Positions 5,845 to 8,342 of a stretch of 32,335 nucleotides of DNA are shown one piece after another (positions within the stretch are counted from its first letter, which is position 1; the number at the start of each line of letters is the position of its first letter). Source of the DNA: Campylobacteraceae bacterium (GTDB taxonomy: Bacteria > Campylobacterota > Campylobacteria > Campylobacterales > Sulfurovaceae); assembly GCA_027014605.1 (NCBI GenBank), contig JALWDJ010000058.1, positions 1-32,335 on the forward strand, read 5' to 3'. Both the position numbers and the translations under genes were made by a program. Below the pieces are notes generated by a model that saw only the letters and a program-made list of their open reading frames with translations, ran no database searches and was not told the DNA's origin.

Positions 5845-6966
5845 ATGTCTAATATAAGTTATCCTTCAAATCAAGGAAGACTCTACTTTTTTAATTTCTC
5901 TCCATGGAGAATGATGCAGATAGAGCCATTTTTCTATGCACCTAATAATAAAAAAATTATATGTAGAGATTTAGATGATGCTATAAAAAAAGGGTTAGGA
6001 GATAATTCAAACATATTTATATATGGAATTAAGAGATTAAAAAGAGTTGAAGAGTTTGCTAAAAAAAAAGGTATAGATATCTATAGAATTGAAGATGCTT
6101 TTATTCGCTCAGTTGCACTTGGTTCTGGATTTGCTAAACCATACTCTTTAGGGATAGACTCAAGAGGAGTCTATTTTAATCCTAAAAAAAGTTCTGATTT
6201 AGAACATATGTTACAAAACTATAGATTTAGTAAAGAGTTATTAGATAGAGCCAAAAGAGTTAGAGAGATGGTCATAGAGTCTAAATTTTCAAAATATAAC
6301 CATCTAGCACATGTAAATTTAAATATAGATAGAGATAGATACCAAAAAATAATCTTAGTTACAGGGCAGGTTGAAGATGATATGTCTATTAAATATGGAG
6401 CATTTGGATTAAATAATAGTGATTTATTAGAGATTGTTAAAAAAAATAATCCTGATGCTTTTATTATCTATAAACCCCATCCAGATGTACTCTCAGGTAA
6501 TAGGATAGGAGATGTACCTAAAGAGATTACAGATAGATATGCCAATTTAGTTGTGACTAATATTAGTATAGATAGTGCAATTAGTGCAAGTGATGAGGTT
6601 CATACTTTAACTTCAGGTGCGGGATTTGATGCACTACTTAGAGAAAAAAAAGTTTTTACCTATGGTATGCCATTTTATGCAGGTTGGGGACTTACAGTTG
6701 ATTATAGAGAATGTAAAAGAAGAACTAGAAAAATATCATTAGATGAGTTAGTTGCAGTATCTTTAATTTTATATCCTAGATATATTTCTCCTAAAACAGA
6801 AAAATTTTGTGAAGTTGAACAGACCTTAATAGAGTTAAAAGAGGAACAAGAGAGATATTTTAACGATAGATTATATAGATATGGAGTAAATCTTAAAGGG
6901 TATATTTTACCAAGAGGTAGAAAAATATTAAGAGCTATATTAAAGCCATTTAAATTAAAGATTTAG
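5845..6966 (+). CDS. KpsC/LpsZ-like capsule polysaccharide glycosyltransferase, single module
   Basis: KpsC proteins add beta-linked Kdo to the lipid terminus of ABC-exported capsules. The usual KpsC is about 670 aa with two related modules; this 373-aa protein holds one. Family segments are R-I-E-D-A-F-I-R-S at 81-89, with PYSLGIDSRGVYF at 99-111, GQVEDD at 174-179, KPHPDV at 210-215, TLTSGAGFDALL at 254-265 and YGMPFYAGWGLT at 273-284. There is no signal peptide or membrane segment, so it is probably cytoplasmic. The ATG is preceded by AGAGGA. It lies opposite the initiating sugar-phosphate transferase, which supports a surface-glycan role. Whether it still uses CMP-Kdo is inference. Confidence 0.88.
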   Translation: MSNISYPSNQGRLYFFNFSPWRMMQIEPFFYAPNNKKIICRDLDDAIKKGLGDNSNIFIYGIKRLKRVEEFAKKKGIDIYRIEDAFIRSVALGSGFAKPYSLGIDSRGVYFNPKKSSDLEHMLQNYRFSKELLDRAKRVREMVIESKFSKYNHLAHVNLNIDRDRYQKIILVTGQVEDDMSIKYGAFGLNNSDLLEIVKKNNPDAFIIYKPHPDVLSGNRIGDVPKEITDRYANLVVTNISIDSAISASDEVHTLTSGAGFDALLREKKVFTYGMPFYAGWGLTVDYRECKRRTRKISLDELVAVSLILYPRYISPKTEKFCEVEQTLIELKEEQERYFNDRLYRYGVNLKGYILPRGRKILRAILKPFKLKI

Positions 6967-6972
6967 AAAGAT

Positions 6973-7133
6973 ATGAGATAGTTTTAAAGTAAAAGGAGTA
7001 AGGGAGGGGGAGTTTTATCTATAAAAATATTTAATATTATATAAAAATCTACTATAAATAACTTATCTCATTTTGAAATCTACTATTACAAAAGATTTCA
7101 AAGTAGATAGGAAAAGGAGGTATATCTATCTAC
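6973..7133. other. Structured non-coding element of three abutting stems
   Basis: The 266-bp gap between the KpsC-like gene and the lipoprotein gene holds no convincing ORF. Stem A pairs 6973-6983 with 7060-7071 (8 bp plus 3 bp, one bulged T). Stem B is a perfect 10-bp repeat, TTTGAAATCT (7072-7081) with AGATTTCAAA (7093-7102). Stem C is a perfect 8-bp repeat, GTAGATAG (7103-7110) with CTATCTAC (7126-7133). No spacer separates the stems. The 15-nt loop of C contains AAAAGGAGG on the plus strand and CCTCCTTTT on the minus strand. No strong T-run follows on either strand, so this is not a plain terminator. The transcribed strand cannot be decided from sequence. Confidence 0.5.
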
Positions 7134-7216
7134 ATCTTTCATAATGATATTATATATCTATTGTGTAAACAGATAAAAAACCAAAAATTAACAGTTGGTT
7201 AATATTAAATTATATT

Positions 7217-7240
7217 GTGAGTAGAAATTAATCTACTCAC
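7217..7240 (-). terminator. Hairpin over the stop codon of the HYR-repeat lipoprotein gene
   Basis: A perfect 8-bp inverted repeat (GTGAGTAG / CTACTCAC, 8-nt loop) includes the stop codon at 7233-7235. The following bases are AT-rich but lack a T-run, so termination is likely weak. Confidence 0.45.
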
Positions 7241-8342
7241 TATCATCAAAGAAAATTCTCATAATTTTATATGGTTTAAAGTATATATATAATCCTGCAT
7301 TACTATCATGAGTATTTCCAGAACCTCCATGAATATTTCTAAAATATCTAAATAGTGCATTTCGTTCTGATACAGTATCATACTGTTTTTTTAGAGTTTC
7401 TGTATTATGATCTATATGTAATCCCCACATCTCATGAATATCTCTAATAGGGCTAAAATCAATATAGCTAAGATTATTATAACTCAAATCAAGGTCATCA
7501 ATTCCATCAAAGATACTCAAAGGAGATAAATCTATACTACTTAATCCTCTATGAGAGCAGTCTATTTTACCATGATATTTATGAGTTGAAGCATCATATA
7601 AAGAGTCATTAAATGTTCCCCCACAAGTGCTACTATACCATGCTTTAAAGTTATCTAATTCACTATAGTAACTATTATTATTATTGTTATTGTCATTATT
7701 ATCATCATAATAGTTTTGAACAACAACTATTTTATCTTTATATGTAGTATTTCCAGAGCTATCTGTTACACTATATGTAACTACATAAGTTCCTGGACTA
7801 TTAGTATTAAGTTGGCTATCATCAATATAGACTTGACTTGTTAAATCTCCATCTTCAGCATCTGTAGCTCTGTAATCATTATAATATTGAGAAGTACGGA
7901 AATTTTCTCCTAAAGTTAGATATACAGTATCTTGATTGAATGATATGACAGGTTTATGATTATTATCTCCATTATTATATAAAGAGTCACCATTATCATT
8001 TACAATTTTTACATGTCTAACAGCTCTACCCACATTTCCATCACTATCTGTTACAGTGTATATAACTTCATAATCTCCTGCTCTGTTCCAATCTATATTG
8101 TCACTTCTTTCAACTTTATCTGTTAAATCTCCATCTTGAAAATCATAAGCAGTATAACCATCTTCTGGAATAGTCATTGTCCCTAATGGAATTTGAATAT
8201 TAGTATCTCCTTGAAGAGTTATAATAGGGGTTTCTCCATCTGAAGCAGTTGAATTACTATCATCGCCACCACATCCCGTGAAGATAGTTGTAGTATATAG
8301 AGCAAATATTATCATAAATACTACTATATTAATCTTTTTCAT
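7233..8342 (-). CDS. Putative lipoprotein with two HYR/DUF5011-like repeats and a leucine-rich-repeat-like segment
   Basis: The 369-aa protein begins with a signal peptide ending in FTGC, a near-lipobox with acceptor C24. Two immunoglobulin-like repeats follow (about 38-114 and 130-208). Each carries DGDLT, then a G-[DT]-Y-x-V-x-Y-[TS]-V-T-D stretch, then GN. An Asn/Asp-rich linker (about 212-224) follows. The last part has C240 and C262 and one or two degenerate leucine-rich turns (LSSIDLSPL, LDDLDLSYNNLSYIDFSPI-like, about 267-299). Such repeats occur in surface adhesins and polysaccharide-binding proteins; the ligand is unknown. The ATG has AAAGGA upstream. The gene is flanked by the structured gap on its 3' side and by divergent der on its 5' side. 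Confidence 0.7.
   Translation of the reverse strand: MKKINIVVFMIIFALYTTTIFTGCGGDDSNSTASDGETPIITLQGDTNIQIPLGTMTIPEDGYTAYDFQDGDLTDKVERSDNIDWNRAGDYEVIYTVTDSDGNVGRAVRHVKIVNDNGDSLYNNGDNNHKPVISFNQDTVYLTLGENFRTSQYYNDYRATDAEDGDLTSQVYIDDSQLNTNSPGTYVVTYSVTDSSGNTTYKDKIVVVQNYYDDNNDNNNNNNSYYSELDNFKAWYSSTCGGTFNDSLYDASTHKYHGKIDCSHRGLSSIDLSPLSIFDGIDDLDLSYNNLSYIDFSPIRDIHEMWGLHIDHNTETLKKQYDTVSERNALFRYFRNIHGGSGNTHDSNAGLYIYFKPYKIMRIFFDDSE
7675..7710. repeat. Trinucleotide-rich tract encoding the Asn/Asp linker
   Basis: Reiterated ATT/GTT/ATC triplets on the plus strand encode the Asn/Asp-rich linker of the lipoprotein on the minus strand. Changes in triplet number would alter linker length in frame. Confidence 0.5.

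Follow-up and report, generated by a model that had tools for sequence, protein, structure and literature searches.

The stretch of DNA analysed here (the window) comprises 32,335 nt of a genome of the Sulfurovaceae. In the gap between a capsule-synthesis gene on the plus strand and a lipoprotein gene on the minus strand it carries an element of inverted repeats, and the minus strand from about 7142 to 6966 is in all probability a real conserved RNA gene. The features of the locus are given below.

5845-6966, plus strand: capsule polysaccharide biosynthesis gene (KpsC/KpsS-like; PF05159, 131.5 bits)
6966-7142, minus strand: predicted small RNA gene, 5' end at about 7145-7142, 3' part reaching at least to 6966; 159.5 bits over the full length with a covariance model of 8 sequences, the window's own among them
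6966-6972, minus strand: 3' strand of helix P1, AUCUUUC; 6966 is also the last stop-codon base of the plus-strand gene
6973-7071, minus strand: hairpin A, basal helix 6973-6980/7064-7071, large loop with CUCCCCCUCCCUUACUCCUUUU; both-side changes at 6 of 8 pairs, swap test z 12.5
7072-7102, minus strand: hairpin B, 10 bp; both-side changes at 4 of 10 pairs, absent in L010, L015 and other relatives
7103-7133, minus strand: hairpin C, 8 bp, loop with CCUCCUUUU; both-side changes at 6 of 8 pairs (8 sequences), swap test z 13.6 (40 RNAs)
7134-7140, minus strand: 5' strand of P1, GAAAGAU, pairing with 6966-6972 in MFE and centroid structures; all 7 pairs form in each of the 8 aligned sequences, and the wider alignment shows no variation
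7149-7154, minus strand: predicted -10 element TATAAT, 10 bp past the last repeat of the box; near-invariant in 32 non-redundant copies
7165-7203, minus strand: predicted regulator box of four direct repeats with 11-bp period, reading from 7203 to 7165 ATTAAC-caact-GTTAAT-ttttg-GTTTTT-tatct-GTTTAC; exact match to the pattern
7217-7240, minus strand: intrinsic-terminator-like hairpin, 9-bp stem, loop of 6
7233-8342, minus strand: lipoprotein gene with Ig-like/PKD-type domains (PF16403, 96.8 bits)

The hairpin at 7217-7240 is the sole terminator-like site between 6700 and 7500; it stands right in front of the box, where it ends the lipoprotein gene and isolates the RNA gene. The next minus-strand gene past the RNA lies more than 1 kb off, beyond the antisense gene. 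Neither a tRNA at the locus nor an open reading frame of note across the RNA region was found. Rfam 15 gave no match at gathering score in the window, a loose threshold yielded only chance matches to microRNA models, and among the loci of relatives the only match was an unrelated tRNA.

Fold and conservation of the RNA

The original prediction described three inverted repeats abutting without a spacer. This arrangement was borne out: stems A (8 bp, 6973-6980/7064-7071, lengthened inward by bulged pairs), B (10/10 bp, 7072-7081/7093-7102) and C (8/8 bp, 7103-7110/7126-7133) are all present and join with zero spacer bases. It had listed these three correctly but missed the promoter, the four-repeat regulator box, the RNA family and a fourth stem, P1, which is formed by GAAAGAT (6966-6972) and ATCTTTC (7134-7140) in both MFE and centroid structures and, by closing the other three, completes a four-way junction with no unpaired base at its centre. 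The proposed SD/anti-SD sequence in the loop of C is likewise there, at 7112-7120, reading AAAAGGAGG on the plus and CCUCCUUUU on the minus strand, and the loop of A (6991-7012) holds a longer run of the same kind, CUCCCCCUCCCUUACUCCUUUU on the minus strand. The P1 strands GAAAGAU/AUCUUUC are nearly invariant in sequence among the RNAs, and no intrinsic terminator was seen behind the RNA in the scan of 6700-7500.

Several lines of evidence favour an RNA read from the minus strand. Pairs that are G-U on this strand would be A-C on the plus strand, which points to the minus strand as the transcribed one, and the conserved promoter lies on it as well. The minus-strand fold has a z value of -4.56, with none of 200 dinucleotide shuffles as good, against -1.69 and 9 of 200 for the plus strand, and the covariance model, which includes the window's own sequence, scores 159.5 bits on the minus versus 15.8 bits on the plus strand. 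The predicted transcript would be roughly 177 nt long. Together with the compensatory changes in relatives described below, the minus-strand z value confirms the early claim that the arrangement is unlikely to have arisen by chance.

A nucleotide search of 60 related genomes returned same-genus homologues that match most of the length at 93, 88, 78, 71 and 68% identity, as well as other relatives matching the promoter and the 5' end only. Two close relatives keep fold, loops and promoter at 88-93% identity. On the minus strand the homologues share a common order of TATAAT, 6-9 nt, AUGAAAGAU, hairpins and a final AUCUUUC. The covariance model found homologues in 21 of 34 same-genus genomes, to which the promoter search adds more; outside the genus it gave nothing credible, the sole match (L074) being doubtful (E 0.008, no promoter) and rejected. 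A further model match (L063 in G007) was rejected as well. Many relatives have the RNA behind kdsB and ahead of a gene for an htrA/degP-type protease (Trypsin_2 and PDZ domains). In the window, as in its two closest relatives, the RNA adjoins the lipoprotein gene, and one of these two relatives also has the same capsule gene.

Covariation in related genomes, which had been suggested as a check, is strong. In an alignment of 8 homologues, both-side changes occur at 16 of 33 pairs (shuffled mean 6.7; slid registers 1-6) and 93.4% of the cells are standard pairs (shuffled 85.7%; slid registers 32-52%); none of 500 shuffles came up to the observed figures, the one exception being the number of pair types, which 136 of 500 reached. 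In addition, an alignment-free swap test was carried out in which, for helices A and C, anchored strands were exchanged among 40 non-redundant RNAs. Helix A scored 18.1 with its own partners and 11.8 with swapped ones (z 12.5; best of 5000 permutations 14.0), and helix C 17.2 and 11.6, respectively (z 13.6; best of 5000 permutations 13.6). The median fold z of these 40 RNAs is -4.1. The structure of the RNA is thus under selection. P1 hardly varies and is therefore conserved as sequence too, and hairpin B is optional, being missing in some relatives.

The four-repeat box and the ArsRS system

Upstream of the RNA, the box follows the consensus of four RTTNWY-N5 direct repeats, then 10 bp and TATAAT. 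Counted relative to the first modelled base, its TT doublets at -57/-56, -46/-45, -35/-34 and -24/-23 are invariant in 32 non-redundant copies. Tandem OmpR-family response-regulator sites are laid out as 11-bp-period repeats placed in this way, and the present repeats, the last of which stops about 10 bp short of the -10 element, show this feature of OmpR-family-controlled promoters. By its geometry, the box is a predicted response-regulator site of the OmpR/PhoB type. Two other identities were dismissed: the TTTACA near -25 belongs to the box as its repeat 4 and is hence no sigma-70 -35 element, and a Pho box (PhoB) was set aside because the geometry suits any OmpR-family regulator and the adjacency to arsRS is preferred.

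With at most one mismatch, each of 34 genus genomes contains 2-8 box sites, and a reversed-pattern control gave nearly none. We read 92 non-redundant sites: all 65 exact ones lead to a CUCC-bearing RNA, as do 21 of the 27 with one mismatch, and of the other six, two immediately precede htrA. Promoters of class 1 had helped to define the pattern, which makes their recovery circular in part. The definition drew on neither the sister class nor the second copy of the window's own genome nor the matches in other families, and these are independent of it.

Searching the window's own genome for further copies, as the original prediction had advised, yielded no second copy of high identity. One diverged copy with a box was found, between proC and gyrB (G000:C29 from 21853, plus strand; gene names assigned by eye from translations). 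The complement of this copy resembles a start region, TATAAAGGAGATTATTATGAAAA, and this second RNA would therefore be both anti-SD and anti-AUG. A third box, which is imperfect, lies before the operon of a moxR-type ATPase (G000:C43:26204-26258, L135). Relatives have up to eight box sites per genome.

The sister RNA class shares the box and has three CU-rich loops, one of which is the complement of TTACAAAGGAGGTCTAAATATG (SD, spacer and AUG). With its box it lies directly upstream of an arsR-arsS operon in 27 of 30 genomes examined. The regulator of this operon has receiver and Trans_reg_C domains, and the kinase passes the ArsS model NF038389 with 390 bits at a cut-off of 250. Among the 30 genomes, the sister RNA was not found upstream of arsR in the window's own and two others, and the own arsR also has no box, so that the link to ArsR rests on the relatives. 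From this adjacency it is rather probable that ArsR is the regulator of the box, which it would bind, activating its own operon and the RNAs. For ArsR of H. pylori, no binding consensus has been described (PMC11162790).

In places the box also precedes htrA, moxR and a gene of the LTXXQ (CpxP/Spy) type. Such a set of htrA, moxR and CpxP/Spy-type genes resembles the output of Cpx-type envelope-stress systems. A box before a moxR/von Willebrand (Bat-type) operon was seen in two distant families (L135, L189, L190), which suggests that the moxR operon is an old member of the regulon.

A side observation concerns the arsR genes themselves. In most of the 30 orthologues (L147-L176), which include the own-genome gene (G000:C30:21906, L174), the reading frame opens five codons before KILMIEDD and offers no ATG, GTG or TTG there. 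The layout GGA TTT nnn ATT/ATC ATA AAA, with AAGGA 6 nt before the ATT/ATC, is kept in 30 of 30. Judged by this layout, translation of the response regulator seems to begin at AUU or AUC, as in infC.

Beyond the genus, 20 of 249 genomes of the order contain an exact match to the box pattern, and the control gave none. In genomes which by resemblance are Arcobacter-like and in other families, the box mostly leads to short RNAs that consist of a hairpin, an unpaired stretch with CUCCUCCU or UUCUCCU and an intrinsic terminator, some other-family genomes having tandem copies. The loci with such short CUCC/terminator RNAs behind a four-repeat box are L177-L186, L196, L197 and L199; those tested gave no Rfam match. 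In two genomes of another family the box stands before moxR. As boxes of other families lead to short CUCC RNAs, the link between box and anti-SD RNA is wider than the junction fold. At L188, in another family, ATTCAC repeats with an 11-bp period precede TATAAT and the gene of a secreted-looking protein, possibly another OmpR-family regulon.

Loop motif, proposed action and alternatives

The motif CUCC, which is the complement of the Shine-Dalgarno core, occurs 121 times in 40 RNAs where 29.2 are expected, and GGAG occurs 0 times. Within these RNAs 92% of the CUCC bases are unpaired, compared with 44% of all bases. A CAU complementary to the start codon stands beside the anti-SD sequence in the sister class and in the second copy of the window's genome, but not in the window's RNA. 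Hfq was absent from 34 of 34 genus genomes in a search that was positive for control genomes. Promoter, fold plan and loop motif are shared throughout the family, which is multi-copy in this Sulfurovum-like genus.

These features led us to a main reading with a probability of about 0.7, namely that the window encodes a trans-acting anti-SD small RNA under the control of an envelope-stress two-component system; transcription, regulator and targets are inferred here from comparative sequence data, and the anti-SD action itself is likewise probable. A two-component system, most likely ArsRS, would switch the RNAs on under envelope stress, the four-way junction would hold the CUCC loops open, and the loops would block the translation of selected mRNAs by pairing with their Shine-Dalgarno regions, without Hfq. 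Copies in htrA or arsR leaders, where the RNA is located in several relatives, may for this reason act in cis or be processed from a longer transcript. Of the readings offered at the outset, a small RNA whose minus-strand loop pairs with ribosome-binding sites is strongly supported by the minus-strand promoter, the G-U pairs, the covariation and the conserved CU-rich loops.

Searches for targets of the window's RNA covered the long loop complements and a duplex scan of 30 genes, and no specific mRNA stood out. The loop sequences bound 30 local start regions no better than shuffled loops did. Sequences complementary to the A-loop core do recur in the genome, but it takes 3 mismatches to find them and none lies at a convincing start site. 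For the loop of the sister RNA, an extended complement turned up essentially nowhere else in the genus. This outcome keeps alive a different explanation, in which the repeated CUCC(U/C)UUG loops act as a decoy for an RNA-binding protein and titrate it, in the manner of CsrB, whose GGA loops sequester CsrA. Each RNA indeed shows two to four copies of one short motif in its loops and several RNAs occur per genome, which would suit such a decoy; the lack of GGAG motifs implies that the protein is not CsrA. A CsrB/RsmZ-type sponge for CsrA was consequently rejected (0 GGAG on the transcribed strand of 40 RNAs), as was a plus-strand GGA-loop version of it, since promoter and G-U pairs are on the minus strand. 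Against a decoy in general stands the fact that the motif complements the Shine-Dalgarno core, and C/U-rich loops of Campylobacter and Helicobacter small RNAs pair with G-rich mRNA sites (PMC8687705, PMC8322730). We therefore consider it unlikely.

It is quite unlikely that the RNA is mainly a cis-acting leader (5' UTR) which controls or times the downstream gene, the stand-alone copies being relics. The position directly upstream of htrA on the same strand in many relatives, and that of the sister class directly upstream of arsR, agree with a leader. In the window, however, fold, loops and promoter are intact although the next minus-strand gene is more than 1 kb off, and many other copies also stand alone.

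The original prediction had also allowed for a structured 3' UTR and for a small mobile repeat, neither of which held up. That P1 starts on the last base of the capsule gene's stop codon would suit a 3' UTR structure or a bidirectional terminator of this gene, but such a role is very improbable given the conserved minus-strand promoter and G-U pairs, a plus-strand fold only slightly better than shuffles, and homologues that lie beside quite different genes (kdsB, htrA, proC-gyrB and others). A mobile or REP-like repeat, to which several copies per genome in some relatives might point, is hardly tenable, as only two copies were found here with no high-identity second copy, the stems have diverged past simple duplication, the copies share a common promoter, and the kdsB/htrA/arsR synteny is stable in many relatives.

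Comparison with known small RNAs

The anti-SD reading finds its closest parallels among the following known RNAs. The csRNAs of Streptococcus belong to the CiaRH regulon and have a CiaR box, TTTAAG-N5-TTTAAG, 10 nt before TATAAT (PMC3091779, PMC4507080). They resemble the present family in that several related small RNAs per genome are driven by an 11-bp direct-repeat box of the response-regulator type 10 nt before TATAAT and expose an unpaired anti-SD sequence, next to which an anti-start-codon CAU is found, here in the sister class and the second copy. The two differ in the number of repeats (four here, two there) and their sequence (RTTNWY versus TTTAAG), in the fold (a closed multi-helix junction versus two hairpins and a linker), in the terminator hairpin, which was not seen here, and in phylum and regulator. 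LhrC of Listeria, a multicopy member of the LisRK regulon responding to envelope stress, has three redundant CU-rich sites per RNA (PMC4132741). Common to both are multiple copies and redundant CU-rich sites, and also two-component control and envelope stress, which for the present RNAs are predicted. No kinship in sequence or structure was seen; the UCCC sites of LhrC are spread over two hairpins and a linker, and LhrC binds Hfq, whereas Hfq is absent from the genus studied here.

Within the same phylum, CJnc190 of Campylobacter jejuni and RepG of Helicobacter pylori pair through C/U-rich loops with G-rich mRNA sites, and H. pylori has neither Hfq nor ProQ (PMC8687705, PMC8322730). Unlike the present family, they are single genes with a different fold and no reported four-repeat box. 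The Xanthomonas RNA sX13 acts on G-rich motifs near start codons independently of Hfq (PMC3771888). Like actinobacterial 6C/B11 RNA, it has several hairpins with C-rich loops as found here, but both are without a closing P1 and unrelated in sequence (no Rfam match here). We know of no two-component box for either sX13 or 6C/B11 RNA.

To our knowledge, the well-studied Campylobacterota lack Hfq and ProQ, and few of their small RNAs are understood. The family presented here is undescribed before, of a known regulator kind, and has a strikingly uniform promoter code. As a tentative view, for which the odds are a little short of even, ArsRS, which is widespread in Campylobacterota, might have as a main output rapidly diversifying, multi-copy, Hfq-independent anti-SD RNAs together with htrA, moxR and CpxP/Spy; this would be a Cpx-like envelope-stress response largely carried by small RNAs, with junction RNAs in Sulfurovum relatives and short terminator-ended RNAs in Arcobacter-like families. 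With promoter signature, fold plan and exposed motif uniform throughout the family, its regulon can be predicted from sequence in dozens of species, and the box suggests a binding site for an ArsR-type regulator, previously without a consensus. With the streptococcal csRNAs and LhrC of Listeria there is an apparent convergence, in which a two-component stress sensor leads to multicopy anti-SD RNAs.
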